Assembly: GCA_018417955.1 (NCBI GenBank)
Contig: JACTVC010000029.1
Coordinates: 682,001 to 746,000 of the forward strand
Length of the DNA: 64,000 nt
Reading direction: 5' to 3'
Source of the DNA: Laccaria trichodermophora
Taxonomy: Eukaryota; Basidiomycota; Agaricomycetes; Agaricales; Hydnangiaceae
The number at the start of each line of letters is the position of its first letter. The first letter of the stretch is position 1. A program made the position numbers and the translations under genes. Below are positions 18,701 through 41,010 of the stretch, in pieces. The notes beneath the pieces were generated by a model. That model saw only the letters and a list, made by a program, of their open reading frames with translations, was not told the DNA's origin and did no database searches.

Positions 18701-20577
18701 GGACAGGATATGAGAAGAATAAGGTATAAAACCTATATTTAAATGCAAGTATATGTTAATTTACACTTCTGCACACCTCTTTCTCTTCACTACTATTTAA
18801 CCAACTTATTATTCAAAATTCCTTATAAAATTTGAACTCAATAAATCAATTATAATGTATTTAAAATGACATAAAACATATTTTATTATATATTACTACA
18901 TACAGACTATATTAAAGTACTGGGAAAGGGGGTGGGGACAAGGGGACCAGGCTGTGGAGAAGGAAAGGGACAGGGACAAAAGGGGTAGGGAGGGGTGGAG
19001 AGTTATGGAGGGAGAAGGGGGGAGTAATGGGGAGGGGAAGAAGTGGTGGAGGGGGGATGGAGAGGGAGTAAGGGAGGGGTGGTATTGTCGCCTCGTTTTT
19101 GTGGACGTGGTCGCGTTGACGTGGTCGTGGACACGCCAGGGGGAGGGAGGAAAGGGGGGAGGGAATGGTGGAGCAAGGGGGAAGGGAGCAAGGGGGAGGG
19201 ACATCGTGGGCGTTGTTGTCGCCGTCGTCGTGGGCGCTGGTTGCCGTTGGGGGCATCGTTGTGGGTGGCGTTGGTGTGGACGTGGTGGTTTTGGTAGGCG
19301 GCATGGTGCTGTCGTGTGTCGTGTGGGCGGTGCGTGTTTTTCGGCGGGCGGCGCGTGTTTTTCGGTGGGCGCTCGTGTTTTTCGGTGGGTGGTGGGATGT
19401 TTTCGTGGGCGGGGTATGGTTTTCGTGGGCGCTGGCGGTGTACGTGGGCGGTGGGCGTCGTTTTGTGCCCGTCGGGTGTCGTTTTGTGTCCGGGGGCGTT
19501 GTTTTCGTGGGCGTTGGGTGTTTTCGTGGGTTACGGCGCTCGTTGTTTCGTGACGTGGCGTCGCCGCGTTGTTGTTGAAGGGTGTCGTGGTCGATGTTGG
19601 TGGTCGTGGTGGCCATGGGTGATCGAGGAGCGACGTTGGCGGTGGTGGCTATGGGTGACGGTGATGGCGTGGCGTTGGCGGCGGTGACAAGCATGGTGGT
19701 GGTGGTGGAGGAAGAGAGTGGCCATGTTTGGTGAGCATGTTCACCAAACAAACATTGTTTGTGATCCATTAAAAATAAATAAACTATAATACAGTAACAA
19801 ATAAATAAAATAAACAGATTGGACTGGAATCCACTCCGGGGAACACCATTCCTGCCCATTCCGGGGAAGACCATTCCGGGGAACATTCCGGTGTACATTC
19901 CAGAATCCACAGGAATTCCACCGGAATGGAAAACACCGGAATAAACAATTTAGCAGGGCCTTCTGCTAAATTCCATTCCACTGGAATCCACCGGAATTCC
20001 ACCGGAATGACCGGATTCCACCGGAATGACCGGATTCCTGCAGGAATAGGGGGGGCACTGCTAAGACCTCAGTCCCATTGCAAGAACAATGAGGTAATCT
20101 CCTATCTATGTTCCTCAAATTCTCAGACTCCCTCAACAAGCCCAGATAAGGATCCAAAAGTTCAGGGATCAGTTTCAAAGCCCAGTTCCTCCACAAGGCC
20201 AACTTTTTGTCTAATCTCTTCTTTGGGGAAACTTGCTCTGCAGGAAACACCAAAGGGTGAAGGACATCACTAGCAGAATCTTCAACAGAATATTCAGAGT
20301 CACCACCTGAGGAGTCAGATAAATCATCCTCAGCAGCAGCAGCAGCAGCATCATGCAAATCAGCCCCAGTGGGCATTGAAATCTGATTAAATGACCCCAG
20401 AGGAGTGGTCAAGTCTTGCCTAGGTAAGATCTGAATGCCTGGCAACCCATAAGGACGACGGGACACAGTAGAGTCACTAGTAGAAGCCCAAGTATGACTT
20501 GAGGACTTCTTCTTCAATGACGGAGATCCAATAGCAATCCCAGCCTTGCCCAAGTAACGGCTCTTGTTGAAAGCCAT
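15705..20577 (-). CDS. KDZ-family transposase gene, interrupted by element E2
   Basis: Joining 20577-20070, 18570-18535, 18480-17922, 17864-17153, 17098-16501, 16444-16043 and 15985-15705 gives 3096 bases, an open frame of 1031 residues, the usual size for the family. All five introns are 54-57 bases with GT-AG ends. Residues about 160-190 contain two CSC motifs (LPHCSCNG and VEVCSCSA), the CxC cluster. The core begins near residue 365 with VDVIVCIDACFTHKRR. It continues with DTGLVAMLCRHDHVLWLVNM, GILYDIGCQLE, FHAYGHQWPCQLVYHPRKC and GFGLSDGEGCERFW, the KDZ signature with its acidic residues. A basic, coiled-coil-like region follows (RLRDRLRNRKFELERLERAY), and the tail is acidic. The start ATG at 20577 opens MAFNKSRYLG. 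As it stands the gene is knocked out by E2. Confidence 0.88.
18580..20069. mobile_element. Non-autonomous TIR element E2 inserted in the KDZ gene
   Basis: The left terminus is CAGTACTTTACAGTGCCCC and the right terminus, reverse complemented, is AGGTCTTAGCAGTGCCCC. Both continue into CCTATTCCTGCAGGAAT. The 9-base direct repeat CAGTCCCAT flanks it (18571-18579 and 20070-20078). Both end zones carry ATTCC/GGAAT palindromes (18605-18700 and 19825-20050). The interior has an AT-rich stretch and an 800-base G-rich, GTGGGCG-rich stretch (18930-19730). Its long open frames are low-complexity artefacts. Confidence 0.88.
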
Positions 20578-20779: not shown

Positions 20780-23700
20780 TTACGAAGAGGGCAGGGCGGA
20801 CGTCACTGAATCTGCAAAGCTAACTGGCTCTGGGCGTGCAAGAGAACGACGAGGAAGGCGACAAGGGATGATGGGTGCACGACCAAAGTTGTCAAAGAAA
20901 GACTGGCAGTAGAAGCTCGTACACGCTTCTTCCAGTGCCTGAACATGCGCCTCTATCGGTAGGTGGCTAGCATCCTTAATTGAATCCAGGCAACCCTTCC
21001 ATGGACACATCAACCTCCCAAGCTCCACAAGATGACGGTTCCGTTCTTCCAGATCAAACGATGTCAAACCCAAGTCGCGATTGGGGATTTCGTTGATCAT
21101 AAAAGATCCGAGCACATCACCCGACAAGGGAAATACCCTGAGAAGTTGCTCTGAGCGAGACCTCGCCGCTTCTGCATCTGTAACACCCCACCGGCCATGG
21201 TACAATGTGTCGGCAAGGAGAGCATCTAGGCTCAAGAGTTCAATCCGGAAACTCATGTGGCAGAGTTCCCAGAGAATCTCCTGAATGACCTCTGGCGTCA
21301 ACGCCCGCTCAAGCTCCTGTGTTGTGCCCAACTGGATGGTTGTATCATAGAAGACCACCCAATCGATCAAGGTGTTTCCCAAGGGGATCTCCTCCAGGTA
21401 CGAGTTCGATTTCTTGACATGTTTCTTTCGGGACGAGGCACCAACTTTTTTCTGTTTCCCTTTCGTGGCAGGCTGCGGAGGCAACGGTACGGCGGTGGTA
21501 TCTTCAACATCCGCTGTATAATCGATGTCATCAGCATCCAAGAAGGGTATGATTCGCAAGAGGAAATTCCGCCATTGCTGGGCAGTGATAGGTGGCGGTA
21601 GCTCGGTTGCCATTGCCAGTGTGTAAGCATGATGAGCCCGGATAGCAAGCCAAGTAGCAGTGTACAAAGCCCGATTCTTGGAGTTCAAGAAAATCTCTGG
21701 TTTCGGGTATTTGTACCCGATGTTCACATCCCCTGGCTGACGTCTCAAACGACGACGATCGGTATCCAAGTTTCGTAAAGCGTTGGCCCACGTGGGAACG
21801 GGGACAGGCATGAAAGGAGAGTTGACATCAGCCGCGTTCGCCTCAGCTATGCGAGGGTGCTTCGAAGGTCCTGGACCACCATGACGTGTTGGGTTGGGCA
21901 TGACCGGTGGGATGGATGGTACCGAGGAGCGTCGGGACAGCTGCTGAGAGGCCACAGAAAGCAGAACTGCCAGAATTCTCAATTACTACATATGTTAAGC
22001 TTAGAATGGTGAGACCCACCTTTCGAGGATGGTGCGGGTTGTTGTCCGACACTTCTGGAAGCTGAGGGTTGTTGTCCGACACTGCTGGATGGTAACAGGT
22101 AAGCTGAGAGAAAGGCAGAAATTAGTCTCCAAGGTTACATAGAAAGAAATACGAAAGAACCAACCAGATGGGCCAACTTTCCCCGCGGACGACAACGCGG
22201 ATGCGGACGGCACAGGAATAGAATCTTCATTGAGGTATGTGAAGTGGGTTGCATCATTACAAGCTGAAAACTTACATTCGTCTCGAACTGCCCCAATACT
22301 AGCTTTCCCCTCAATAAAGTCTTGTCGACCGATTGCAGTGACATTTTGAAGGTCCATGATTGCGCAGCCTATACGTTGGGTCCACCTGTAAAGTTCGGAC
22401 GAGGGCGGACCAGTTGCCAGAACAGGGTATGGGTCTAAAGTGCCCTCATGATCCTTGAAATGCTCAAGAACGATCATCTTGCAATGTTGCTGGAAAGAAG
22501 GGATGTTGACATTCATGGTGGGGAGGATTCGAAATGAGGGGCGGATCAGCCATACAGGGATCCCCATCGCCTGCAGTTGTTGAGCAACCTGAACCTTTTC
22601 CGTGAAAGCCCCCATCAGAGCCTGATTGGCATCGTACTTCACCACGCCATTGGGTCCAGGAAACAGACGAGGTTGATAGACGTCTACGAAATCGATCCAC
22701 GCGTGGATGTCAAGGACAGCCCTCTGGAATTCTGCTACGCCGAGTAGGATTTCTTTGTAAGTCATCCCAAACGATTGAAGCCTATCAAGGGCTTGACACA
22801 TTGTGGTAACCAAAAGACCCGCAAGAGGGGAGCGGTCGCGTCCCTCTCGTTTTGCGATTAAACCAACATACTTGTCACGAAGATCCTTGTACCCCTTCAG
22901 GAGTTCTGGCTTGAGTACGCGAATGGTGATGGAGAACAGTGAATTGGGAATCATGGGGCAATCAGCGAGGGTGGGTGTCCACCACAACATGTGGCGAGAC
23001 TGATCGCGTTGGGGGATGCAGCAGATGTACTCGAAACCTTGGACGTACATCTGGGGGTGGAGGGTGCAATCGTCTAATCCAAAGCGAGGTCTTTACCTTC
23101 CCTGGGTTATTCCATATGGAATCCATGGATAATTCCATATGGAATCCATGGAATCAATGTTGGCTGAGGACCCAGCCATTTCCTTATTCCATAGATCTCA
23201 TGGATTCCATATGGAATGACCATGGAATGGTCATGGAATGATTAATTCCATATGGATTCCAACACCACTCCATATGGATTCCATTGGATTCCACATGGAA
23301 TGCAGGCATATCCACCTCGGATTCCATGGAGCAGTCCACATGGATTCCATGGATGACCATTATACCATTAGAATACAGTATTTATAGTGTCCTTACTATA
23401 TTTAAGTAAAAATAGAAATTTTACATCTACAGGAATTGAACTCTCGGCCTCGTCAATATTAGCAGTGCTCAAACCAACTGAGCCACAAAGGCATTATTAT
23501 AGGATAAAGTAAAGGTATGTATATACCGCCTTTTGTCACGTGGCGTCTCAAACGTGACACGACGCGTTGCCAATGCCACGTCGTTTCTTCCTTCCACCAC
23601 CACCATCACCATCCACCCCACCGTTTCAAGCCACGACGACCGCCCGCGACATCGACGTCGACCACGACCACGACCACGACCACGCTGACGACGACGACGA

Positions 23701-25404
23701 TGCTGACAACGCACGACGACACGCAACGTCGTCAACAACGACCCCGCCATTGCAAGAGCCACACGACGTGGCAACGCCACGTCACATGGATGGGAGGCGA
23801 CGACGACGACGACGCGGAACGTCAATGGACGTTCCGCCTCGACTGCAGCCCAGGTAAGTGGACTGGGTAACCCCTCCCAGTCCACCTTTTGACAACAACA
23901 AACCAGGTACCACGACGCGCGGATGGGAGGCAACGACGACGACGCGGGGACGTTCCGACACGACAACCGAGGAGCCCGCCCACCCACAAACAACGCACAC
24001 GGCCCCACGCGACCCCCACTGCCCACGAGCGCCCACGAAAAGAAACGAGCGCGCAGACACGACAACAACGGCACGACACCGAGGACGGTGCCACGTCACG
24101 CCACAACCACCAACGCCCACCAACGTCAACGCCCGCCCACGACACGACAATGACGAAATCCGCCCACCCACGAACGACGCCCACTGCCCCACACGACCCC
24201 ACCGCCCACGAACGCCCGCCCACGACAACGACTGCTCACGAGCGCCCACGACGCGACAACGAACGCCCATGCACGACAATGAAAACCCACGAGCGCGATG
24301 CCAACGCCAACGCGAAGTCGAACGAAACGGCAACCCACCCCCACAGATGCCAATACAGCCCACCACCCATGACCGACGACGACGCACGCGTGCCTACGCA
24401 CGGAGGATTTCGCTCGCGTCAACGGAAATGGGCAACGACGAGCCCAGGTGAGCTCCCCCTCCCTCCATCATTCCTCACCACCACCCTTCCATCATCCCCC
24501 CTCCCTCCCTCTGTTGCTCCCCTCCTCATTTCTCCCCCTCCCTCCATTGCTCCCCCTCCCATTGCTCCCCCCTCCATCCATTCCCACCTCACCCTTCACC
24601 ACTCCCTCCCTTCACCACTCCCTCTCTCCTCCATCACTCCTTCCCCCTCCCTCCCCCCTCACTCTCTACTACATTATCCCCCCTCCATCACTTCCCCCTG
24701 TCTTCCCCCCTCCCTTAAATATTGAGAATAGTAAAAATAAATTGTGTAGTCTATTTAATACATTTCAATTTTTCCTGCTCAACTTAGAATCATTTCATAA
24801 AGTCATTCCATGTGGATTCCATATGGATTCCACCCTTAAAATGGTATAGAACATATAGAATAGAGTATGGATTCCATCTGAAAAAGTATGGATTCCATGT
24901 GGAAAAAGTATGGAATCCATGTGAAAAAGTATGGAATCCATCTGGGGGAAGTATGGAATCCATCAGCCATTCCATGGAATTCATCCCCCAAAGTCATGGA
25001 ATCCATTCCCCCTTCCATGGAATCCATCCCCCCTTCCATGGAATCCATCTGGAATTTCTGCAGTCCACCCTCCATTCCATGGATTCCACATGGAATAACC
25101 CGGGGAGGGTAAAGTATTGTCCAAAGCGGCCATCTGCCTTTGCTTGGATACGTCGAATGCCAATTGGAGCTGTCGGGATGTAACCCGCGTTCGGAGTAGT
25201 GATAACCCACCAGGAGGCAGGGTCGAGCTTGTCCGGATGTTCGATAAAAGTGTTGATCCCCGCCTCACTCCCAACCTCCCTCGTCCGAACCTTGTGATCG
25301 ATAACATCCCAACAGTAGGCATCCGTCGCGAGGAAATCCCGGTCCAAATCATGCGTGTATTCTTTGTAATAAGGTTTCGAATCTTGAATTGGAGTATCGG
25401 CCAT
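20780..25404 (-). CDS. Gene A: large gene of unrecognised family, interrupted by element E3
   Basis: The segments 25404-25120, 23077-22276, 22224-22165, 22103-22020 and 21966-20780 total 2418 bases, 805 residues without a stop once E3 and one target copy are removed. The introns (51, 61 and 53 bases) have GT-AG ends. I recognise no domain. Visible features are a globular N-terminal half with many aromatic residues (DPASWWVITTPNAGYIPT, YVQGFEYICCIPQRDQSRHM), a short SVGQQP repeat and Ser/Pro linker, a basic stretch KGKQKK...RKKHVKK, and a helical C-terminal region. The ATG at 25404 follows an AG, so further 5' exons are possible (see 26469-27046). It is divergent from gene B and shares with it a hairpin motif in non-coding DNA. 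Apart from E3 it shows no decay. Confidence 0.7.
23087..25119. mobile_element. Non-autonomous TIR element E3 inserted in gene A
   Basis: The left terminus is AGGTCTTTACCTTCCC and the right, reverse complemented, is CAATACTTTACCCTCCC. Both continue GGGTTATTCCAT. The 9-base target duplication TCCAAAGCG occupies 23078-23086 and 25120-25128. End zones are ATTCCATATGGAAT palindromes (23105-23350 and 24800-25100). The interior is C-rich (CCCACGA, CTCCCTCC) and is the reverse complement in style and order of the E2 interior, so E3 is an inverted copy of the same subfamily. Confidence 0.88.
23424..23492 (-). other. tRNA-like RNA polymerase III unit inside E3
   Basis: Read on the minus strand, the segment starts GCCTTTGTGGCTCAGTTGG, with an A-box-like TGGCTCAGTTGG and a D-arm GCTC/GAGC. 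About 35 bases later comes the B-box-like GAGTTCAATTCC. A TTTTT run follows about 20 bases downstream. The anticodon stem and the 3' acceptor strand do not pair properly, so it is not a working tRNA. It resembles the head of a tRNA-derived SINE. Confidence 0.5.
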
Positions 25405-25453
25405 GGCTAGTAATACAGTCAGAATTGAATCATAGTCAGAATTGTTGAAAGAA

Positions 25454-25549
25454 CCTCGTGCGACAAAGAGTCAAACACGAGGAGAGGACATATATCGACA
25501 AGGAGTCAAGATATATATCCTCCAACGGAACGACAAGGAGTCCAATTCC
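25454..25549 (-). repeat. Hairpin cluster 1 (three copies)
   Basis: Three loops CGACAARGAGTCNAR (25461-25475, 25496-25510, 25531-25545) are each enclosed by their own stem: CCTCGTG/CACGAGG, GGACATATAT/ATATATATCC (one mismatch) and GGAA/TTCC. On the gene A sense strand the loop reads YTTGACTCYTTGTCG. They lie just upstream of the exon that starts at 25404. Confidence 0.8.
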
Positions 25550-25862
25550 ACAATCGAACAGGGCCGAATCCAGTGGACGACCACTCACCAATCAGAAACC
25601 AGTCGATAGAGCACTAGAGTAGGTAGCCAGAAGCGAGAGAGAGGCGGTAGAAGCCCCAGAGACGTGCGGCTCAGAAGATTCAAGCAATGAGAAATGAGGC
25701 TGCAGTTTGAGGGAACGGCTGATCAGTAAGAGAATACATGCCAACAAGAAATACTCACCAATCAACGAAGTATTGTTCGGCAAAGGGCAAACAATGAAGG
25801 ATGCTCGCGAACGCCTACGAACGACGGATCAGTATGTAGGTCTGGGGCCAAGCGAAACGAAA

Positions 25863-25925
25863 CTGAGCAACAAGGAGTCTAACCCAGGAAGGAGGGAAGG
25901 TGGATCGACAAGGAGTCGAGTTCCG
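25863..25925 (-). repeat. Hairpin cluster 2 (two copies)
   Basis: The loops CAACAAGGAGTCTAA (25868-25882, stem CTGAG/CCCAG with one mismatch) and CGACAAGGAGTCGAG (25906-25920, weak GGAT/TTCC-like stem) belong to the same family and orientation as cluster 1. Confidence 0.6.
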
Positions 25926-26468
25926 GAAAGAGAGGGAAAGATAATGGGGCGAAACGCAATACTCACTGTTTGAGTCCCGCTGGGCGCCAGTTATCGTGGA
26001 GTTCGAGGAACAATGAGGAGACTTGAGAAGGAACGGGTAAGTAGGACCGCCGTTGATCATTGATCAACACCCAAAAATCCAATTACGTGGATCAGCGGTA
26101 TCACGTGAACATCAGACGCGTCAATATTTGGACTTGATAGTAATATGCACCATGAGGACAAACTGACCACAACGCATTCTTGCGCTTCGTTGTAATGTAG
26201 GAAAGTGCGCATTGTTATGTTTACCTACCACCTGAGCGATCCTGTTGTCTCCGAAACACGGTCACCCCCAAATTCGCCAGTGTCCTCCATTTAACTTCGC
26301 GTGCCACCCTCTAAATAACCGTCCTCCGATGTTCACTCCGATGTTCGAGCCCTCATTGCTACTATTTTGAATTGGAGTCGTTTTTCACTATCTGCCGCGA
26401 GTTTCTGAGTAGAAGGCAGAGGCAGGGATGTTAGCTGTGAAGAAGCCAACATATTTGAGCAACAGCAC

Positions 26469-27046
26469 CTGATATGAGCCGCCAGCTCTTCACGACGCTC
26501 TTCAGGACACCGCGTAGGTGTTAGCCCACACGATCCATTTTTCCCTACAAGATAATCCCTCTCCGCACTTCCTTTGGCGTCTATGGTCTCGCAGCGCCTA
26601 AGAAGATAATGGGTAAGAATTAGTCCAAATTAAACCTACGAATCGGCACCTCCAGCTGAGAGGTTGGCTGGCTGGAAGTCGTCGTCCTCTTCATCACTGT
26701 CGTCGTTTGTCCTGCTTGATCTCCGTTTGTGTGCCCTAACACTGGCCCGAGATGTGGGTGCGACGATCGGGTTGAAGCGATGCGACCTGGGAACGGGCGC
26801 GGGATAGGGAATGGTGGGTGGTGGTGAGTGCGATCCGCTCCCACGGCTATGTCTGCCAGAGGCCATGCCATCGGAGGACAGCTCACCAGTGCTCAAGGGG
26901 TGAGCGAGCGACGGAGGGGAAATGGCAGCACCATCAACTAAATAGCAATTTCAGGAAGCCTAGTACGCGGATAGTTAGCCAGGGAACTATACCGTTTTTA
27001 AAAACTCACCTATCGCGAAGTCCACCGTCATCCAAAGGTCACCCAT
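26469..27046 (-). other. Candidate 5' exons of gene A, or a small separate gene
   Basis: Three segments on the minus strand join in phase: 27046-27010 (MGDLWMTVDFAI), 26937-26640 (Ser/Pro/Arg-rich, ending in the acidic SDEEDDDFQPANLSAGGAD) and 26597-26469 (RCETIDAKGSAERDYL, then RCPEERREELAAHIR). Splice ends are GT-AG. I could not find an in-phase join from 26469 to the exon at 25404, so the link is not proven. Confidence 0.4.
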
Positions 27047-27228
27047 CGGACTACAGGAATTGAAGCGACCTAGCGAGGTTCAAAAGAGGCGATTACGTCG
27101 TCAAATCCGAGGCCAACGTGAGCCAGAGCCTTGGTTCGCGGGATGTAACCTTGGCGCAAGGAGCGGACCACCCTACCAAAATTAACATGTCAGCGCCAGT
27201 ACCCTACGCGAATAAGCTAACCAACGAT

Positions 27229-27327
27229 GCGAGCGACAAAGAGTCCAACTTGATCGAACTCAGACCGACAAGGAGTCAAGGTCTGTCAAGGTCTGCCTAC
27301 ACGGGACGACAAAGAGTCCAATCCCGG
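27229..27327 (-). repeat. Hairpin cluster 3 (three copies)
   Basis: The loops are at 27234-27248, 27266-27280 and 27307-27321. Their stems are CGAG/CTTG (one G-T pair), CAGAC/GTCTG and CGGGA/TCCCG. The orientation matches gene A. Confidence 0.75.
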
Positions 27328-27670
27328 CCCTTCATGGCCACAGAGATGTATTGGGCATTACTCACCGTATAGTTCGTCTGCGAGGCAGTGGACGACGAGA
27401 GTAACTTGAAAGAGCACAGGTAAGGTTTCTTACATGTACAGTATTATCTTATCAAACTCTGATCTTGATCTCCGAACTTTTGATCACCGTTGACAGCCAC
27501 TCTCCCGCCCTCTTTCTCCGACGCATCCCGCTTCCCTTGTTCCCTGTTTGTCCGACGCTTCTCTTGTATCCTTCAAGGTCCTTTATTCACCGCGTCCTTT
27601 CTTCTGGGTGGATGGTTTTTTCTTGAAATGTGAGTACTCCCATTCGCTCACTTTGTCTCCCTTCTAGCGC

Positions 27671-27761
27671 ACAAGGATTTGACTCATTGTCGTCCTTGTT
27701 GCGAAGGCCTTGACTCATTGTCGGCCTTTCACTCTGGCGGTTTGACTCTTTGTCGCCGCTT
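27671..27761 (+). repeat. Hairpin cluster 4 (three copies)
   Basis: The loops YTTGACTCWTTGTCG are at 27678-27692, 27709-27723 and 27741-27755. Their stems are ACAAGGA/TCCTTGT, AAGGC/GCCTT and GCGG/CCGC. The orientation is now that of gene B. Confidence 0.8.
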
Positions 27762-28092
27762 TTCTCTCAAAGCGCCGGATTGAAGATGATGCTCATTGTT
27801 TTCAATTAGATCGGTGTTTCTGTGCTAGGCCATTCTAACTTGTCGGGCCAATTTTTGCCCGCCGTTCACGCTCCTTACATCGCCGCCTCTTTCAAATGTG
27901 ATTGATCGCTGTTGAAAGCCACTCTCCCACCTTCTTTCTCCGACACATCCCCCTTCCCTTGTTCCCTGTTTGTCCGACGTTTCTCTTGTTTCCTTCAAGG
28001 TCCTTTCTTCACCACGTCCTTTCTTCTGGGCGGATGGTTTCACTTTCTTGAAATGTGAGTACTTCGATTGACTTGCTTTGTCCCCTTCTGGC

Positions 28093-28185
28093 GCACATGG
28101 ATTTGACTCTTTGTCGTCCTCGTGGCCAAGGCTTTGACTCCTTGTCGGCTTTTCATTCTGGCGGTTTGACTCGTTGTCGCTGCTA
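28093..28185 (+). repeat. Hairpin cluster 5 (three copies, duplicate of cluster 4)
   Basis: The loops TTTGACTCNTTGTCG are at 28102-28116, 28133-28147 and 28165-28179. The stems match those of cluster 4 copy by copy: CACATGGA/TCCTCGTG with an internal mismatch, AAGGC/GCTTT and GCGG/CTGC. The changed bases in the last two turn G-C pairs into G-T pairs. Confidence 0.75.
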
Positions 28186-28943
28186 TTTTCTCAAAGGGCC
28201 AGCTTGAAGTCAATGCTAATTGTTTTCACACAGATCGGAGGCAGTTCTCGCGCTATATCTTTCAGACCAGTGCTGCCTGCCGTTCGAGCTGGTTATCATG
28301 GGACCTCTATCGCTTGCGCACACTCCGATCCACCTTCTTGATCACAACACGTATGAAACCTGCCGACTTTACCTAGTGCTATAGAAGCTCGCCCGGCAAT
28401 GCTATTGTCAACCCTGCACCCACTCGTGGCTGGCCGTCTAATTCAACCCAACAATAGCCTGGACGCTATGCAGCGATGTTGTTCCTTGGCCTTGTTTAGG
28501 CACCTCCGTCCCTCTCTCTTTTGGCAGGGTAAGTTGGCCTCGACGACCTACGTAGATGCGCTCATCGCGGATATATCTATTTCAGAATTTGAATGCCAAT
28601 GCCTAATTTAAGGCACCAGCTAAGTTCTTCATTATGGCTAGTCAGTTATACAGATCCGTCGTGTAAGCTATTGTCTATGTCCAATCCGCCCGATTATTGC
28701 TATGAGCTGACCCCGAGATTAGGGACTTGCGCCTCGTCATTACAATGAATTCCAACTGTAGTGCAACATTACATGCATAACATGCAACAACAAATCCCTT
28801 CGGGTTAGCTTGGTTTTGTCCTGACATAAGTAAAAAGATGATTATATATTAGAAACCCCGTGGACGCCTCTCTGACCTTTCCCATTCACAAAAAAGCCCT
28901 CGAATTTCGAACAAAAAAGCCAATACCAAAACTAACAACTATA

Positions 28944-31900
28944 ATGTCAGAACCTCGTCAACTTCGCTCTCGTAAGCCTGTTGTCGTTCCACCCCTTGTG
29001 GTGGGTAGAGGCAATGCTTCCCCCAAGGTTAGAGACTCCTCTGCCACCGTTTGCCACGTCGTTAAAATATTTTTGCAGAAGGGAGCGGTGAAGGCGGCAC
29101 AAAGTACACACGACGATAGGTATGGTCTTACCCTTGGTAGCGATAACTTCCACCTCAACGTATTTCAGTGTAACAGATGCTGAGACTGGCAGCGACGTTG
29201 TCGGGAAGACCGCGCCCACTCAGGCCACAGGCCCTCGTACTCGAGTCAGGAAGGTCGCTGCTGCTGTAGTCAACACCACCGTTGACGAGGCTCCTACACC
29301 GGCTGCTGCTCAACGTGGTCGGGCCAAAAAGTAGGTTTGCGGCTTAAGGGAAAACAACGAACTAATGTTTTATTGCAGAAATAAAGCCAAGCCTGTAGAG
29401 AAGAATCTACAGAGTCAGTCAGAACCCGAAAAGTCGGAGGCTGTAGTCAACACCGCCGTTGACGACGCTCCTACTCCGGCGGCTTCCAGGCCCAGTCGGG
29501 CCAAAAAGTATGTGTTTGCCTCTCAAGGGAAATCAACGAAGTAATGTTTGGGTGCAGAAACAAATCCAAGGCAGAAACAAAAATTCTACCAAGTGATTCT
29601 GAACCCGAAAAGTCTACCCCAATGGCGGACAACATCAGGTGAGGTCTTGTTAGCGATTCATCCGGGGTGGTGCGAGTCTGATCGTGAACTTTAGGTTCAT
29701 GGACAACCAAGATGGGAACGACGCCATTGTCGACACTGAACCCTGTGAGACTCTGGGACGTTCAATGGAGGTGGTGCCCATCTCCGCCTTCAAACTGAGG
29801 GCTAATCAGCTGCTGGATTCCGATCCACTGAAGCTGAACGTTGGTGACGGGTCAAACCCCATCGTCGACAATGTCTTCACCGATGCGGTCCCTGGAGGGA
29901 GTGGTGCGGCGTCTGGGACTGGCTCCCACTCGGCTCACGTCAAGCTCAGTCTGACAAAGTCTTTCCGCATGTACGGCCTCAAGCAAGTGTGCGTACGTCT
30001 GCCTTTTTCAGGGCTCTCCGTTTGACTCCTTGTCGCGGCGAGTCCTCACCTGAGTGAAATTTGACTCCATGTCATTTCACTCGGGTTTCACCAGCGTTAA
30101 CTCCTTGTTCGCTGCTTCCCCTTGTTCAAAATTTCTCTAACAACTTTACAGGGTGCATAATATTGCTGATCCAGACGCAACTCCCACCCAGGAACTTATA
30201 TCCCACACCAATCGGTTGGTTGCCTAGACATCTACATTGATTGGGTGTACGACTGACTGTAACTCTGCAGAGTCATGGACAATTTGACCGTAGCTGCTGA
30301 TGACTTGTACTTTAACAAAGATCCGAAGAACCGCCCATCATACTTGGAGAACTCCCCGCCTGCACGTCGCGCAGACAATACGGGGGGCAGGTAAGTGCTG
30401 AAAAGGAGCTCTGACGAAGACCGTATTGATCTTATGCCTCAGGGGAATGTCTGGTTTGATTGGGTTCGGCCTTCCGTTGTCTGTCCAGGCCAGGTTGACG
30501 TGAGTCGCTTATCATGATTGTTCCTATCTGGCTTACCAGACTTGTAGTGCTGCTTCTGCCAGAGTTTCTCCGCCAGTGGAGGCCACATTTTCCATCAGAT
30601 CAACTCTCATTCCAACGTACGTATCTTGGATTATTTAGAGTAAGAGTGGTTTTTGACTACGCTACAGAAATGAATCATCTGGTGTCTTTCCCTCTTCACC
30701 CATTCCCGGCCCCACTCAGGCTGAGCCTCGTTCGCGTGGCCTCTACACGTTACGCAATAGGCCCAACATACCTTCCTTACTTCTTATTGATCCTACATTG
30801 GCCTATCGTGAACCCAAGACTAGTGATGTGCCGGCCTGGCCTGAAAGCCGCAAGCCAGCCCAAGCCGAGCCTTCTGAGGCCAAGCTCTGTGAAGCCGTCG
30901 CAGGGCTTGGTGTGGCCTGCGGCTCAGGCTTCACTTCTTCAAAGCCCTGAGCCGTGGCTCAGGCCACGGCTTTGTGCAGCTGATAATTAGGTGTGTAAAC
31001 AACCTCTAAGGTGAAAAAAAAAGACTGAGCTCACATCATTGCTTGACCTTGAGAATCAACATGAGAATTGACAGGTAACACCGCCAACAAAAGTCAATTG
31101 ATGATTGATTTACCTGCTTGAATTGCACCACGTGAGCACTTTGCACTATCCCGCGAATCCAATCTCACCAGTTCTTGCATATTGACTCATTTCAAGCTAA
31201 GTTGCAAAATTCAATGATATAAAATGTTTATTAACCCATGTACCAGCTTTTCTTCTTACTCCTTGCTTACAGGCCGCGGCCTAAGCCCAAGCCACAGACG
31301 GCTTTGGCTGGCTTGGGCCCAGGGCTCGGGCTCGAGAAATCTCAAGCCCGAGCTCTCAAAAGCCAGGCCAAAGCCACGGCTTCCAGGCCAAGCCGGGCCG
31401 TCACATCACTACCCAAGACCCCTGACCCAGCATCCAGTGATGAAGATTTCGATTCGACGATGCCATCAGATGATGGGCTGCCCCTCCCTTCCCCGTCATC
31501 TCTTCCGCATCCAGTAACCGTTTACTTCTGCCGTATTGGCAGAGTCATGGAAGGGATGGGTTACATTGGACATCGTTCGAGAATTTGGATAGCCACAGAT
31601 GCTCGCCCTGCCCACCCGTATACCCGGTTTACTTCCTGGCACAATCGGGCGAGTGAACGATGGGAGTCTCTCCCGGAAGGCTACACCACTGATCCCCCTC
31701 CTGCGACGAACCATCTTGGAGAGGTGGAGGTATGGTGGGAGGAAGCGGAGATAATCGCCAGGCATCGGGCTAAACGCTTGGCGGCAAAACGCTTGGCAGC
31801 AAAGTATGCAGAGTCTAAGGACCAACCACAGTCAGGGTGCGATGCAGCATCAGTAGACGAAGCAGAGTTGGGTGATGAAGCAGGGTCAGGCAACGAAGCA

Positions 31901-34900
31901 GAGTTTGGCAAGTTGGGCGACGAAGCAGAGACAGCCGACGAAGCACCCGAAACAGAGGCAGGGCTCGAAGTAGAAGACCAGGTTACAGAGTCGAGCCAGC
32001 GGAGAGGCCTGCCTCCCTGCATCATCCATGGCAATCAACACCCTCAGGCGCAGTGCATACCAGACGAAGAACCAGACTCAGAGGCCGACTTGCAGACGGA
32101 CCACCATCGTTCGGGGTACAGGACAGCATCTACATTGACGCCCAGTGACTATAGTCAGACCACGAAGGCAAAATTAGAGCTACGTGAACATGCACAAAAG
32201 AATCAGGGACTTGGACACGACGAGATGAACACTGAGGAGGAGGAGGCTGATGACGAAAGGATAATGAAGGAAGCCGATAAGCAGGATGACCGTCGTCGAA
32301 TCAAGAGCAAAAAGGCTTCGAAAAAGGTTTCACCACCGGGTGACGGATCCAGGGAGTAGAGGATTCATCAGGTTCGACGTCGTTTGGTGAAGGGCACACG
32401 TCCTGCACAAAGACCTTCAGCAGGCAATGACAAGTCAGGCGATCCCGGCACGGAGTTTACGCGAATTTTACGTCGTTTGGTGGAAAGTAAGCCACCTCCA
32501 CAGAGGCCTTTGGGAGACAGTGACGGATCAGACGAGGATGGAGGAAGCCAAAGTCCCCATGCACGACCTGTTGCTAGTACCAAAGCACTGGGGAAAAAAC
32601 GTGCAGATCCCGCTGGGAAAGAAAAGTGCGGCCGTTACTCAGCTCGCGAATTAGATCAAGTCAAGGAGCTGTCAGACACCATCGTGGCGTACTGCAAGGA
32701 CATGGGCCGTACACCTGAGTCCGTCCTACGCAAAGGGGGCTTCAATGTTTCCCTTGCTCGTCAGCCATCTTGGTGGGACGTATGGCAGATGTACTTGCGT
32801 ATTCAGACATACAATCCACAATCAAGTAGGTCTATTATGTTTGGTCTAGGGTAATCAGGCCTCATTGATTGGTTTCAGGTGCCAGTCTAGGCTCGTGGTC
32901 AGCCCAGGCTGCGGTGATGTACAAGCAGCTCAACGAGTCGTTGTCAGGGGATGAGCTGGAGGAGTTCCAGCAGAATATGCTCATCGAGTTGGCACAGAGC
33001 AAGTCGGAGACGGGGGGGCAGCAATTCAAGATGACGAAAACGGCGCTGAAGCAAGTGCAAGATCTTGTGAGTTTCCTGCCTTCAAGCTTCATGGGGGGCA
33101 ACTTATCAAATATTGTTGTTTGTAGGCTATAGCGTTGGGAAGGGCAGACGTGGACTTGATTGGGGTCATCATCCCTCGTGATCCTGTGGCAAACCAGGCC
33201 GCTACCGTTGTCACTGGCAATGACAAGCTGCAACGCGTCATCGAGCATTGTCAAGCGGACGTTAAGAAGATGCTTCACGTTTTGACGACTCTTCTTCGGT
33301 AAGTTATACAACTATCATCAAATCAAATTTGGTGTTGACCTTCGACTATAAAGGGGAATGGATTCTAATCTCATTGTACCCGAATCTGTGGACTTCTCGC
33401 AACTCCTGGGGGTTGATATCTCGAACTTGGATGCAGAAGCCAAAAGCTCAAGTGCAGGGCCGGAGCCTCAGATTGTGAATCCCGCGACGCACAGGAAGGC
33501 ATCGAAAACTCTGACAAAAAAAGGGAAGTCCTCCAAAGCTGTGGCAAGCTCTGCCGACCCCAATTTTAACCTCCCCATTATGGCCGTTCCTGCCGCTTAT
33601 TGGCTTTGCCGTCCCATGGAAACAGCGAGAGATCGCTCGCGAAGATGTGTACCTAATCTACTGAGGTTTGACATTGGTACGTGGCATTGTTGTTGTTGAT
33701 GTGCATTATGTGCTGATGGGTTTGCAGCGGATTGCGCAGGTCCTGAGATAGTGTCGGCATCAGCGTTGTGGGCCAACTTTTTCACCCACTGCCGCGATGC
33801 TAAGATGGTTCTCCAACGTTGGCCTTGCAATGAACCCATCCCTGGGGCAAAGAGATGGTCAATTACCGACATCACTTCAAATGGTATCAATTTGATTTTT
33901 ACGTACATGATGAGCAAGGACGAGACGAACAAGCTGGCCCCTCAAATTGTCTCGTGGTCAGATGGTAAGTTTGACTTGTGTTGTTCACGAGGCATATTCT
34001 AAATGATTGGGCTTTAGATTACACGGACTTGGTGGAGGGGAGTGAGGAGTGGTTGAACATACCGATTGTTACAGGCGAATCCGAATCAGGGGAGCTCGTG
34101 GTCCTCGCCCGTGTCAAAAATTGTGCGCCTGAGGTGGAGAATGCTGCTCGTCAAAACGATGGAGGCGCTGACTGCCCTCCACTACTCCGTGCCAGAGTGC
34201 GTAGCCAGATTATGGAAGATAATACCTTGAAGGTCATCAAGAAGAAGAAGACAGCAACAACCTCAACACAAGTTGGCCGGCAGAAGCACAAGTTACGGGA
34301 GGAGCCTAAGCCTTCAGGAGCTGGTGTCAAGGCGGAAAAACTAATGTCTTCGGATGGGGATACTCAGGATGATGCTCGTGCTCCTGCAATCTCCCCCATT
34401 CATTCCCCTCCAGCCAAACGTGTCCGTCGCCAGGAGTTGGTAGGCCAAGGGGTTGTTTTGGGTTCACGCCCAGTGCGCGAGATCCAAGGCGGACCCAGAG
34501 ACAGCGGTTGGGAGAGTCAAGATGGGCTGCATCCCCGGACCATGTCCCAGGGCCCAGACAATGAGCGCGGGCTGGACAAAGGGCATGATTCACGGGGGAT
34601 GTCCCAGCAGCGGAATACTCATAACGAAGCTGTTGCAGACCGTGCTGGTGGCTCCCGTCTGAGGGCATGGAACGAAGCTGAAGGCCGCAATCACAATAAC
34701 TTCGACACCGATGTGAATATGTATGACAAAGAAGGGTGCGACAATGCTTTCATGGAGGATTATCAGGCGACTAGGTTCGAACCCTCTTTTTCCATGCAGG
34801 ATAACTATCACCGACCGCCGCCCCAGTTCTCAAATCTCCAACATTATGGCCACCATCAACGACAGTATGCACCATCTGACTTTGGTGGAAGAGGCTGTGG

Positions 34901-35093
34901 TCTCCGCCCCCAATATCGAGGACATGGTCGTCCGTATGACTCTAATGGCTACTTTGGCCGAGGAAACGAAGGGTTCACTGGGCATGGCCCTCGCAGGGTT
35001 GGATGCGGGCATTCAGAGAATGGCGATGAAGAGCGATTCACAGATGGTGGCATGTTACGTCGACGACACCCTAGTGAGGGCCATGGATTCTGA
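28944..35093 (+). CDS. Gene B: large multi-exon gene of unrecognised family, with one hAT insertion and one in-frame TAG
   Basis: Ten 5' exons (28944-29119, 29169-29330, 29379-29507, 29558-29638, 29695-29988, 30152-30214, 30271-30390, 30443-30499, 30548-30616, 30668-30820) and 31420-32359 give 747 codons up to a TAG at 32357. The same frame continues through 32360-32825, 32879-33066, 33126-33298, 33354-33676, 33728-33964 and 34018-35093 for 820 more. Every junction is in phase with GT-AG introns. The N-terminal part has Arg/Lys and Ala-Pro linkers with repeated SEPEKS motifs and short RAKK exons. The middle is acidic and Glu-rich. Then come a helical domain (SARELDQVKELSDTIVAYC, RQPSWWDVWQMYLR), a compact domain around FNLPIMAVPAAYWLCRPMET, and a Gly/Arg/Tyr-rich tail. 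The composition suggests a nuclear, possibly nucleic-acid-binding protein, but that is inference only. It could also be two genes, but no ATG follows the TAG closely. Confidence 0.7.
30014..30116 (+). repeat. Hairpin cluster 6 (three copies) inside a gene B intron
   Basis: The loops are at 30021-30035, 30060-30074 and 30096-30110. Their stems are CTCTCCG/CGGCGAG (one mismatch), ACCTGAGTGAAA/TTTCACTCGGGT (12 pairs, one of them G-T) and CAGC/GCTG. All three sit in the 163-base intron 29989-30151, which is about three times longer than the other introns of the gene. Confidence 0.8.
30821..31411. mobile_element. hAT-like MITE inserted in an exon of gene B, 591 bases
   Basis: The inverted termini TAGTGATGTG and CACATCACTA are flanked by a perfect 8-base direct repeat CCCAAGAC (30813-30820 and 31412-31419). 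End zones are packed with GGCTTGGCC, AAGCCGGC and GGCCTGGCC words; the centre is AT-rich. Removing it with one target copy joins REPKT to PDPASSDED in frame at about codon 434. Confidence 0.9.
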
Positions 35094-35395: not shown

Positions 35396-36028
35396 ACTTG
35401 GCCATACCATGGTATGTTGGTATGGTATAACTTGGCCATACCTTGGTATATTGGTATGGTATACCTTGGCAATACCATGGTATGTTGGTATGGTATGACT
35501 TGGCAATACCATGGTATGGTATACCTTGGCCATACCATGGTATGGTATACCTTGGCCATACCATGGTATGGTATAACTTGGCCATACCTTGGTATGTTGG
35601 TATGGTATGACTTGGCAATACCATGGTATGGTATACCTTGGCCATACCTTGGTATGTTGGTATGGTATGACTTGGCAATAACATGGTATGGTATACCTTG
35701 GCTATACCTTGGCCATACCATGGTATGGTATGACTTGGCAATACCATGGTATGGTATACCTTGGCCATACCATGGTATGGTATACCTTGGCCATACCATG
35801 GTATGGTATAACTTGGCCATACCTTGGTATGTTGGTATGGTATGGTATGACTTGGCAATACCATGGTATGGTATAATGTGGTATGGTATACCTTGGCCAT
35901 ACCTTGGTATGTTGGTATGGTATACCTTGGCCATACCATGGTATGGTATGACTGGGCCATACCTTGGTATGGTATAAGTTGGCCATACCATGGTATGGTA
36001 TGGTATAACTTGGCCATATACCATAGTA
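35396..36028 (+). repeat. ATACCATGGTAT / CTTGGCCATACC array
   Basis: About 630 bases consist only of variants of GGTATGGTATACCTTGGCC and ATACCATGGTATGTTGG, giving near-perfect dyad symmetry at many scales. Open frames of up to 273 codons on both strands follow from the lack of stop codons in the unit and are not genes. Confidence 0.9.
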
Positions 36029-36397
36029 CTGTACTATTACGACCAACTCTTCACGCCCTTTGGGGTGTGATACCTTTTAACCATCTCTTTGTCACTTCAA
36101 TGTCCCATGTGATGCGTGACGAAGAGTTTTTGCTCTTCATTTACTGGTGGATTGGCCCTGTAATCTGTCAATTTTTTGACACAAAGGCTAGGATGTATTC
36201 CTTAAGTAGAAAACAGTTCAAAATATGCCAAATATGATGTATAAAGTACATGGCACCGCAGGTCCGAAAAAAAATGACGATTTTAGTCTGGAAATTTTCT
36301 CTTCAAAACTTGGTGTGATGCGTGACATCACGCCCACTTCTCTTCATTCAAACCCCTTTGTGATGCGTGACATGAAGACATGGTCGTAATAGTACAG
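36029..36397. mobile_element. TA-flanked MITE, 369 bases
   Basis: The termini CTGTACTATTACGACCA and TGGTCGTAATAGTACAG are exact inverted repeats of 17 bases, flanked by TA on both sides (36027-36028 and 36398-36399). This fits a Tc1/mariner-type non-autonomous element. Inside, GTGATGCGTGAC occurs three times. It sits at the edge of the 35396-36028 array. Confidence 0.85.
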
Positions 36398-37400: not shown

Positions 37401-37777
37401 CAAAGCTGCCATTTGTAGCCTAATATCTCAGGAAAAACCTGGAGAACCACCCCACAAAATATGGCACCCAATGGACCACTATTGCAGCCTACAGAAATAA
37501 TTTATATATTTTGAAAAAAGGACCCCAGACACCCTGTGACAGCTTTGGTATGATGGTATGAAGTGACATCATACCATATGGTATGGTATAACATGACATG
37601 GTATGGTATGGTAACTTGGTATTGGTATGAGTGGGATATGGTATGGGTTTTCCATTCCATGGTACCATGGTATTGGTATGGTGCTCACATACCACCCTGG
37701 AATGGGTACCATTGAGGTACCCTTAAATCAAAGAATTCATATACCTCATAGGTACCCTAAAATGGGTGACTGAAGTG
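37400..37777 (-). repeat. Terminal repeat copy B with an ATACCATGG array
   Basis: On the minus strand it begins CACTTCAGTCACCCATTTTA, followed by GGGTACCTATGAGG. A short ATACCAT array follows (37690-37545), then TGTCACAGGGTGTCTGGGGTCC. It is the inverted counterpart of copy A at 13108. It directly cuts the copia reverse transcriptase frame. Confidence 0.75.
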
Positions 37778-40700
37778 TCAAATTTTTGGCTGAATTCCTT
37801 CTTGAATTCTACCATGGCTTCGTTGTCTGAAGCTAAAATGATCATGTCATCAACGTGAACTCCGATGATGACAACGTCGTTCCTGATGTGCCTAATATAG
37901 ACACATTGATCTGAGAATAGCCGCGTGAAACCGAGTTGAATGAAAGTTTTGTTTAATTTTTCATTCCACACGCGTCCAGACTGTCGTAGTCCATAGAGTG
38001 TTCTCTGTAATAATAATACTGAGTCTGTGCCATCCTCATATCCGGGGATTTGCCTCATGTATATTTGTTCTTTGAGTTCACCATTTAGGTAAGCTCCCAC
38101 GACATCAACAATGTGGGCAACTAATCCATAAGTGGCGGCGATGGCTAATAATAGCTGTAAAGTATCAAGGCGCATCACTGGCGCGAAAGTCTCAAAGAAA
38201 TCGATTCCGGGGATCTGTGAAAATCCTTTGGCAACTAATCTTGCTTTGTGCCGTACGATTTTGCCTTCTGCATCGCGTTTTAGGTGGAATACCCATTTAC
38301 AGTTGATAGCCACTCTATCTTTAGGGATTTTAACTTTGATGTATGTCCCTAGATTTTCCAATTGATGGATTTCTGCATCCATTGCCTTTTTCCATTCAGG
38401 CCAATCTGGACGGGATCTGGCTTCTTCAGCGTCTTTTGGATCATCATCCATTTTCAGCACTTTTTCTGTAAGCATGGCATAATCATAAGTTGTCTCCATG
38501 TCTTGCAAAAAATTAGTTTCCTCTTCTGTGAGAACTGGTACCTGATGCTGCCATTCTCGAGGACCTCTTGCTGCAGGATTATTTAAAAATCTGTAATGGA
38601 ATGGTGATTTTTTGGCAACACGTGTAGATTTTTCTCGAGTTGGAATTGGAATCTTCGACGTTTTCGACGTTTTTGGCGTGTCCGTGATCACAGTATTATT
38701 AGTACTGATGTTCTCAGGGTTATCGTCTGATGGGAGATTGTCCGATTGACTATTCTCCCCCTCAATCTCCATAGGACGATTGATTGGGACTTCAACGTCA
38801 TCATAGTCATGTATTTCTGTGTCGTTGTTTGAGAAGACAACATTGCGCGAGGTTAAAATTTGGTTGCCGTTCCAATAACGGTAACCTTTGGTGCTGTCGT
38901 CAATGCCAACAAAAATGAATGGACGTGATCTAGGGTCAAGTTTTCTATTTTTCTTGTCTTGTTGTAAAACCCAGCATTTGCAACCGAATTCTTGCAAATG
39001 CGCAATATTAGGTTTCTTGTTCCAGAATGCTTCATCAGGGGTTTTATCATCCCTTAAGGCACGTGTGGGAGAACGATTTCGGAGATAAGTAGCATATTTG
39101 ACCGCTTCTGGCCAAAGATAGTAAGTGAGATGTGGATCTTGTGAATGTAACATAGCACGCGCCTCCGACACCACAGTGCGGTTGCCGCGTTCTGCAATTC
39201 CATTCTGTGAGGATGAATATGCTGCTGTGACCTCGAGGAATATCCCATTGTCTAATAGATATTCCCTAAATTCATCTCCAATATATTCCCCTCCACCATC
39301 AACTCTAAGTTTCTTAAGTTTCCGGCCTGTTTGTGTTTCCACAAATGCCTTGTACTGTTTAAACTTAGATAGCGCCTCCGATTTCTTCTTAAGGAAATAG
39401 CGCATTGATCGGCGGGATTTCCCATCAGTGAATGTGATAAAATACTTTTCTCCCCCTATTCCGGTAGTTTGTGCAGGTCCCCAGATGTCAGATACTGTTA
39501 AATCACCGATTTCGGCAATTTCTGTCTTTGATTCTTGTGGATACGGCGTGACATGCTGTTTTGCAAGAATGCATGCTGGACATTGTTCTGTTGCTGGAAC
39601 ACTTTCATCAACTTCCATACCAGTAACCATCCCTTTTGACTTCAATTGTTTAATCGAAGCCATATTCAAATGTCCCATAATTTTATGCCATTCATCCCAT
39701 GTGTGCGTGTTTACTTTTGTTGAGTAAGCGTGGTCTTGTTTGGTTGAGACCTTGACATTCATAAGGTACAGATTCGAGATCTTGATACCTTTTGCCATAA
39801 TTGTTTGATTTGGTGCCCTGAATCTCACATCCTTGTCCGTAAATAGAACTTGTATGTTGGCGCTTGTAACGTGCCCAAGTGAAATGAGATTGTGCGGCGC
39901 TTTCGGGATATATAGCACATTTTTGAGAGTGATAGGATAGGCTTTCCCATCAACATTAGAGATTAGCCTTATTGTTCCCATCCCTTCTACTGGTTGATTT
40001 CCTAGTCCCTTAACAAAATGGTTTGATGTTGGAGTATATTCACTAAAATAACTCCTTTCCGTTGAGATATGGGAAGTACACGCTGAGTCTGCTAACCATG
40101 AGTTAGCCATAAGTGAAGCAAATGCCATTTCGGGTGCGCCATCAATTCCTGCAAAAGCGAAATCATCAATGATTTCATTTGCACGTGCTCCCCCGAACTT
40201 TGGCTTCTTGTGATGCTTCTCGTTTGATTGATCATTAGATTTAGATCGGCAATCTGCCTGTATATGGCTGCGTTTGCCACATCCATAGCAAATTATTTTC
40301 GAATTGTATTTCTTCTTGCCCCATTTGGCAGCTAGGGCAGTATCATCAGTGCCCTGAATTTTGAGCCGTCTATCGTGCTCAAGGATTCTGGCAATCAGTT
40401 GCGGCGCATTGTTAAGCGCAGATGTATCAATAGATGAAATGTAATTATTCCAACTATCTGGTAACGATGTAAGTAGAATAATAGAGAATTCTGAGTCCTC
40501 TATTTTCTGTCCAAGATTTTGCAATTCTTCCTGATAGACTCTCAGGGTCCTGATGTGATCTTCGATGCCAGTGCCATCATCGCACTTGGCCCGAAATAGC
40601 TTCCGGCGGGCAAGGACAATTCCTAACGGCCCTTGAGCTTCCAATAAGCTCTTCAATGTATCCCAAGCTTCTTTCGATGATTTTGAGCTAGCTATGTAAA

Positions 40701-40929: not shown

Positions 40930-41010
40930 GTGCTGCTACGTAATTGATAAGATAAAAGCTGATGAGAGCGAGGTAAGATGTATAGTAGTATGTATGTATG
41001 TTTAGGGCTC

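Follow-up and report, generated by a model that had tools for sequence, protein, structure and literature searches.

Arrays of conserved bulged hairpins in apparent introns of a KDZ transposon from Laccaria trichodermophora

What purpose is served by 17 small hairpins that share one core and lie in six arrays around two divergent genes? The question is raised by a 64,000-nucleotide stretch of the agaric fungus Laccaria trichodermophora (assembly GCA_018417955.1, contig JACTVC010000029.1, positions 682,001 to 746,000 of the forward strand), referred to here as the window and numbered from its first base. The initial annotation described a conserved 15-base loop on a stem that differs in each copy, around two genes called A and B, and considered either a selected RNA structure or a very small mobile unit that acquires or makes its palindromic flanks. 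Judged from the sequence, the hairpins belong as fixed components to a family of DNA transposons that carry terminal inverted repeats (TIRs) and a KDZ transposase. We lean toward regarding them as RNA sites in introns, bound by a protein with sequence specificity, probably encoded by the element, that would regulate splicing of the transposon's own transcripts.

A hairpin family with a covarying stem

A pattern search of the window, allowing up to two mismatches to the core, gives 17 matches against 0.81 expected, a number that none of 100 shuffles reaches. One match, at 22792, has no stem and is not counted as a hairpin. A covariance model built from 73 nonredundant hairpins of 31 nucleotides (nt) and run with filters off finds 17 hairpins at E ≤ 0.051, all within 25453–30118, with the next-best window match at E 1.2. 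Two rows of the model come from the window and others include near-identical copies, so the informative part of this result is the lack of window matches outside 25453–30118. The number of copies, their restriction to the surroundings of genes A and B, and their orientation, on the minus strand to the left and the plus strand to the right, agree with the annotation. Its range already took in the hairpin at 30088–30118, which is too diverged for the pattern and is found by the covariance model, and every stem that it quoted is present. The hairpins are as follows, with covariance-model E values in brackets.

25453–25483, minus strand: hairpin A3c, stem CCTCGTG/CACGAGG (1.9e-8)
25488–25518, minus strand: hairpin A3b, long stem of alternating A and T, also seen in the fold (9.4e-8)
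25523–25553, minus strand: hairpin A3a (7.6e-8)
25860–25890, minus strand: hairpin A2c (6.1e-6)
25898–25928, minus strand: hairpin A2a, mutated outer arm GGAA/ATCC, GGAA/TTCC in its orthologues in copies L028, L029 and L031 (1.3e-5)
27226–27256, minus strand: hairpin A1c, weakest stem, absent from the minimum-energy fold of its array (0.0022)
27258–27288, minus strand: hairpin A1b, CAGAC/GTCTG (1.3e-8)
27299–27329, minus strand: hairpin A1a, CGGGA/TCCCG (2.4e-7)
27670–27700, plus strand: hairpin B1a, ACAAGGA/TCCTTGT (2.6e-8)
27701–27731, plus strand: hairpin B1b, AAGGC/GCCTT (2e-7)
27733–27763, plus strand: hairpin B1c, GCGG/CCGC (2.2e-7)
28094–28124, plus strand: hairpin B2a, shifted form in the minimum-energy fold (1.3e-7)
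28125–28155, plus strand: hairpin B2b (1.8e-7)
28157–28187, plus strand: hairpin B2c (2.2e-6)
30013–30043, plus strand: hairpin B3a (8.6e-7)
30052–30082, plus strand: hairpin B3b, stem of 12 base pairs (bp), also seen in the fold (2.4e-7)
30088–30118, plus strand: hairpin B3c, inner stem AAC/GUU in place of GAC/GUC and closing pair G-C in place of U·G (0.051)

The architecture, termed type I, comprises a variable stem, a closing pair between core bases 1 and 15, a 2-nt U-N bulge, a 3-bp GAC/GUC stem, and a UCNUU pentaloop. The 15 bases are thus a conserved core, as annotated, and not an open loop, since they hold the closing pair, the bulge, and the inner stem. Most copies are intact hairpins; the exceptions are A2a, with its mutated arm, A1c, which is unformed, and B2a, with its shifted fold. 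B3c folds into the same shape despite its altered inner stem and closing pair.

The flanks pair beyond chance when compared with re-dealt arms, as had been proposed. For the 16 hairpins found by pattern, the mean Watson-Crick run is 3.94 bp, compared to 0.61 bp with the 3' arms re-dealt, and 0 of 10,000 re-deals reach 3.94. The 137 distinct arm pairs from fetched copies show a mean run of 3.60 against 0.58, with a maximum of 0.97 in 2,000 re-deals. Removal of near-duplicates (up to 3 differences in 31 nt) leaves 73 hairpins, 3 of which (the rows from L015, L026, and L027) are doubtful. Their gap-free alignment supports 12 pairs, with 81.5% of the cells paired compared to 64.1% in shuffles, and gives a covariation score of 0.541, compared to 0.215 for shuffles and at most 0.142 with partners slid by 1 to 3 columns. 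Double changes occupy 201 cells against 82 in shuffles, a count that stands for fewer events than cells, as the 73 hairpins are paralogues within and between arrays. An unaided consensus fold returns the same form with 8 pairs, consisting of the stem, closing pair, 2-nt bulge, GAC/GUC stem, and 5-nt loop. Five of the six window arrays (all but 25860–25928) show fold z-scores of -7.2, -0.7, -5.9, -2.2, and -7.1. A chance origin is ruled out by the pattern counts, the re-dealt stems, and the covariance model.

Among the 137 distinct hairpins, the closing pair is U·G in 83, C-G in 36, U-A in 13, C·A in 3, and another combination in 2, and the first inner pair is G-C in 125, G·U in 12, and A·C in none. 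These sense-strand wobbles and the near absence of C·A speak for RNA.

Constraint falls far more heavily on the tip and the bulge than on the stem, and the longest stem measures ∼12 bp. A miRNA-like precursor has a stem of about 20 bp with a conserved arm; with stems of ∼12 bp at most and no conserved arm, this identity is rejected for the hairpins. A wider origin as small-RNA precursors, miRNA-like or intron-derived, is hardly credible: the stems are mostly short (mean run of 3.6 to 3.9 bp) and the conserved part is the tip, not an arm. The hairpins do lie in apparent introns of a fungal transposon, and passages of PMC9757828 attest fungal hairpin small RNAs, yet the same passages describe fungal mi/milRNA loci wholly within introns as very rare.

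Comparison between copies speaks for the age of the stems. For 15 of the 17 window hairpins, counterparts assigned by order were compared in three diverged copies, giving 243 comparisons of orthologous pairs, of which 202 are unchanged, 21 keep their pairing after a change on one side, 5 keep it after changes on both sides, and 15 are broken. The 202 unchanged pairs indicate stems that are old and position specific, not constantly renewed. Together with the fixed place of the hairpins in a large transposon, this does not support the annotated alternative of a very small mobile unit. With exon and intron limits that are approximate and set by hand, identity at aligned positions in L028, L029, and L031 amounts to 91, 87, and 85% for the hairpins, 83, 83, and 76% for coding exons, and 80, 79, and 69% for the rest of the introns. 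The hairpins exceed the coding exons at all seven loci compared and by this measure are among the best-conserved parts of the transposon.

Placement in a DNA transposon and in apparent introns

The window copy of the transposon spans 13108–37777. Its ends, CACTTCAGTCACCCATTTT, are identical at 19 of 19 bases, with 82% identity over 208 alignment columns and a likeness extending for ∼200 bp. Hairpin-bearing copies elsewhere in the genome are bracketed by the same end at spans of ∼22 to 25 kb, one of them at 29 kb with a second pair inside, and other copies align with the window copy as a repeated element. Among 11 copies checked at both ends, 8 show a target duplication of 7 bp and 1 (C18, without hairpins) a duplication of 8 bp, while none is visible in C8 and the window copy; 6 of the 11 bear hairpins, 5 of these with the 7-bp duplication. 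The transposase is identified by a match to PF18758 (E 4.4e-56) in the open reading frame (ORF) 17126–17905 and a CxC1 match (E 1.5e-6) in ORF 17918–18481; it shares its strand with gene A, from which gene B diverges. An independent small mobile hairpin is not supported, given this fixed position within a TIR transposon. The two isolated core matches fetched, L026 and L027 (E 5.5e-4 and 0.0034, both training rows), score on their core, and their arms are unpaired. The parts of the element and the introns inferred from its sequence are as follows, where the limits of genes A and B are approximate and drawn from ORFs and homologues.

13108–13126, plus strand: left TIR end, 19/19 identical to the right end
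37759–37777, minus strand: right TIR end, which brackets other hairpin-bearing copies too
15717–18481, minus strand: visible main exons of the KDZ transposase gene (cysteine-cluster region, then KDZ domain), from profile matches
20780–25404, minus strand: gene A, orphan protein, likely ATG at 25404–25402, interrupted by an insertion at 23087–25119
28944–35093, plus strand: gene B, orphan, charged, with many exons, interrupted by an insertion at ∼30820–31411
27173–27365, minus strand: putative first hairpin-bearing leader intron of gene A, array preceded by GTGAGT
25815–25966, minus strand: putative second hairpin-bearing leader intron of gene A, array preceded by GTGAGT
25407–25588, minus strand: putative third hairpin-bearing leader intron of gene A, array preceded by GTGAGT
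27630–27809, plus strand: putative first hairpin-bearing leader intron of gene B, GTGAGT ... TTTTCAATTAG
28055–28233, plus strand: putative second hairpin-bearing leader intron of gene B, tandem duplicate of the first, 86 to 88% identity in cross-matches with L023
29989–30151, plus strand: putative hairpin-bearing intron within the gene B coding sequence, in-frame reading on both sides and similar flanks in other copies

The hairpins of the window are sense throughout, lying on the minus strand for gene A and on the plus strand for gene B. The predicted introns measure ∼150 to 195 nt, with the arrays between donor and acceptor. For the third leader intron of gene A, the putative 3' splice site immediately precedes the ATG, and in the near-identical copy L023, its GTGAGT lies 43 nt before the first core. 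ORF 29654–30025, which runs into the coding intron of gene B, ends at a TGA within the first hairpin core, so retention of this intron would stop translation. In L028 (6600–7400), the unit of exon and hairpin intron upstream of gene B occurs three times in tandem, compared to twice in the window; copies thus differ in how many hairpin introns they have.

By pattern, 107 clusters contain three hairpins (76 clusters), two hairpins (22 clusters), or one (9 clusters), at a spacing of ∼30 to 40 nt. Donor-like sites were counted in 41 nonredundant clusters out of the 98 with at least two hairpins. The motif GTRRGT stands 35 to 51 nt upstream of the first core in 27 of these 41 type I clusters, compared to 1 of 41 downstream, 2 of 41 antisense, and a background of 7.4%. 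The looser motif GTRNGY occurs at positions -55 to -25 in 33 clusters, against 1 downstream, 5 antisense, and 8.3% background. This placement suggests that the arrays sit in spliced introns.

Position between donor and acceptor in introns of this length would also suit a purely structural aid to splicing, in which the hairpins, needing no reader, shorten the distance from 5' splice site to branch point in longish introns or hide cryptic sites; PMC12311795 describes a "zipper stem" in a yeast intron as a splicing enhancer. For such an aid any stem would serve, yet constraint is far stronger on the tip and bulge than on the stem, and the tips differ between element groups, as described below. 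We consider it unlikely, with some weight left to it.

A signal acting later than splicing or independently of it, by keeping unspliced transcripts in the nucleus or exporting them, by setting RNA stability, or by bringing an element protein to its own nascent locus, draws on the same structural evidence, and several sense hairpins in intronic RNA would fit recruitment to nascent transcripts. The fairly fixed distance past a donor-like site is more directly explained by control of splicing, which makes such a signal rather improbable.

The spacing to donor-like sites also weighs against the notion that the hairpins are sites at the DNA level, bound by a transposase or regulator or extruded as cruciform palindromes, that chance to lie in introns. 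The core is partly palindromic, and opposite orientation on either side of the center is found in subterminal transposase sites too. The hairpins, however, begin 12.3 kb inside the left end and stop 7.7 kb short of the right one, and a double-stranded site has no need for 83 closing U·G pairs against 3 C·A pairs. Sites in DNA are therefore very improbable, and subterminal transposase binding repeats in particular are rejected, as the 17 hairpins at 25453–30118 lie well inside 13108–37777 and not near its ends.

Recurrence with other tips and a putative reader

In the 59-Mb assembly, the exact core occurs 209 times (106 + 103), compared to 0 + 2 for the control, and at least 20 clustered places are found among the matches listed. 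Gene A has 53 matches in the genome. A lack of recurrence near homologues would have counted against the annotation; arrays do recur beside diverged homologues of gene A, there with altered tips. Two further types were read in five fetched loci (L054 to L058), and their extent comes mainly from pattern searches. In the type II group, where gene A has ∼29% identity, the hairpins read YUN-GAC-(mostly UUYGY)-GUC-G with the bulge and inner stem of type I, and the type I covariance model detects them at E values of 2e-4 to 0.65. Six of seven type II arrays show GTRNGT 32 to 33 nt upstream, and the seventh (L055) shows none. In locus L054 of this group, gene A is followed on its own strand by a Plavaka transposase (PF18759, E 6.5e-9). 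The type III group (L058), with gene A at ∼24% identity, has a 1-nt bulge and mostly GACU-NNN-AGUC; one of its arrays is preceded by GTAAGC.

The 8 kb upstream of a gene A homologue hold, on the homologue's strand or divergent, 46 of the 47 type I pairs (those with TTGACTCCTTGTCG as the first core), 37 of the 47 type II cores, and 5 of the 7 type III pairs, counted against 50 of the 53 gene A matches, with three further pieces of listed copies omitted. Type III and type II pairs away from every listed homologue include those at C1:5297956, C11:493768, and C13:42877; such pairs may mark further or decayed elements. Type I array pairs were sought in viral contigs, and none was found there.

Proteins typically read hairpins through a tip and bulge of fixed sequence on a stem that is free to vary. 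Covariation, sense-strand wobble, placement past donor-like sites, and high conservation bear out the annotated reading of a selected RNA structure, and a splicing regulator as its reader is, on balance, what we would expect. Each hairpin would fold in the sense transcript, in introns past the 5' splice site, where a protein would recognize the tip and bulge, and the arrays could allow cooperative binding. With the arrays lying beyond the donor, binding could act on U1 access and use of the 5' splice site or on intron retention, by which the transposon may tune its own gene expression. As both divergent transcripts carry hairpins, the genes of the element could be controlled jointly.

Candidate readers are the gene A protein and the gene B protein, which has an RG-rich stretch in ORF 33975–35093; such stretches are common in RNA-binding proteins. 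Homologues of both genes are uncharacterized or unnamed proteins, and those that could be named come from the agaric fungi Laccaria bicolor, L. amethystina, Hypsizygus, and Coprinellus. A host protein is possible as the reader, but the occurrence of different tips within one genome fits element-encoded readers better.

More tentatively, and with belief inclined against it, the gene A module may have brought hairpin arrays together with a matching RNA reader onto elements with unrelated transposases (KDZ and, judged by one neighbor gene, Plavaka). Tip and reader would then have codiversified into at least three specificities (UCNUU, UUYGY, and GACU-NNN-AGUC), each group regulating its own transcripts and not those of its neighbors.

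Besides the paralogy of the aligned hairpins, several points weigh against regulation of splicing by an element-encoded reader. Splice sites and introns are predicted from sequence, and 14 of 41 clusters lack GTRRGT, while 8 of 41 lack GTRNGY in the tested interval, 3 of these with GTAAGC or GTGCGT just outside it. The array at 27226–27330 folds hardly better than shuffles (z -0.72), and the complement of one array also folds, at -33.8 compared to -40.1 kcal/mol (z -4.9 compared to -5.9). At positions 1 to 4 of the outer stem, 181 distinct hairpins show 52 G·U against 8 A·C pairs, an excess given little weight because distal positions 8 to 12 likewise show 131 to 65; in arms with one non-Watson-Crick pair, 15 G·U against 5 A·C differ from 1:1 (P 0.04) but, with composition taken into account, not from 2:1 (P 0.49), which is roughly the distal ratio. 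Of 41 changed orthologous comparisons, 15 are broken. Since hairpins resemble each other, alignment may flatter their identity, and in the partial element L010, the share of all positions matched is 0.46 for hairpins compared to 0.58 for coding exons. For 10 of the 47 type II cores and 2 of the 7 type III pairs, no listed gene A homologue is nearby. The gene A protein shows no recognizable domain or fold in domain scans and in the structure search of one homologue, P0001, whose AlphaFold model (418 amino acids, N-terminal part; mean pLDDT of 66.5) has no PDB match at E ≤ 0.001.

Known systems and copies of the element

Conserved structure is seldom found in nuclear introns. An example is RPL30, a yeast ribosomal protein gene with an autoregulated structured intron, and the literature describes the same kind of autoregulation for the yeast ribosomal protein genes RPL22 and RPL7B. 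The Laccaria arrays share with RPL30-like introns a conserved RNA structure inside an apparent pre-mRNA intron and, if the proposal holds, control of splicing by a protein. They differ in being arrays of one bulged hairpin with a tip of fixed sequence, repeated in multiple introns of a divergent pair of transposon genes.

Protein-read bulged hairpins such as the iron-responsive element (IRE), HIV TAR, and phage boxB likewise combine a conserved tip and bulge with a stem that mainly must pair; their tip, bulge, and inner-stem sequences are different, as is the setting, here intronic arrays in DNA transposons. An IRE has a CAGUGN hexaloop with a C bulge, and this identity is rejected for tips of UCNUU, mostly UUYGY, or a 3- to 5-nt loop and a bulge of U-N or A/U. 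In the Drosophila P element, control of the third intron depends on pseudo-5'-splice sites and the host proteins PSI and hrp48 in the exon. Regulated splicing of its own intron would be common to that DNA transposon and the present one, in contrast to the control site, which in the P element lies in exonic pseudo-5'-splice sites and not in intronic hairpin arrays.

Over the whole window, Rfam gives no match at or above the gathering threshold of any family, and titles and the beginnings of abstracts in the open-licence literature yielded no description of such hairpins. To our knowledge, this RNA family, which covaries strongly and lies in apparent nuclear introns, has not been described before, and while intron structures read by proteins are already known, repeated arrays of bulged hairpins in DNA transposons with group-specific tips would be a new form. 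The hairpins offer an entry to the self-control of large transposons, and the presence of three tip types in the same genome provides a ready-made set for the study of RNA-protein recognition. If a reader protein is found, independent RNA tags for fungi could follow.

As for the element itself, passages of a 2025 paper on fungal TET/JBP transposons (PMC12730594) describe Kyakuja elements of Laccaria with 7-bp duplications and CA..TG ends, and among them Kyakuja-1_LB and Kyakuja-2_LB without TIRs. A KDZ transposase with a cysteine cluster, CA..TG ends, and 7-bp target duplications link the transposon with the Kyakuja (KDZ) elements of Agaricomycetes so described; its long TIRs set it apart from those two families, and it is therefore filed as KDZ and not under either of them. 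The words "hairpin" and "stem-loop" are absent from the main text of PMC12730594. No TET/JBP domain was found in 13 window ORFs, a scan that covered part of the exons.

The window copy carries later insertions at 18580–20069, 23087–25119, and ∼30820–31411, all absent from near-identical copies; inverted repeats occur close to the termini of the first two. Near the right end, at 35404–36076, lies a tandem array of CATACCATGGTATG-like palindromic units, with matching similar arrays in L010, L016, L018, L023, and L028. The minus-strand ORF 37723–40935, by eye a Copia-like polyprotein, runs into the right end at 37777. The transposon looks as if it were inserted into this ORF, and one side may be rearranged, with no target duplication visible in the window.

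A 16-bp TIR end occurs 186 times in the genome, and several facing pairs are spaced ∼6 kb or ∼30 kb apart (for example, C1:1666536–1672753, C2:1348283–1354232, and C7:588209–618345), which suggests smaller and larger relatives of the transposon. Copies with the same hairpin series stand at the very start of two contigs, C1:1–10000 (L009) and C6:1–9000 (L014), and are possibly subtelomeric or cut by the assembly.

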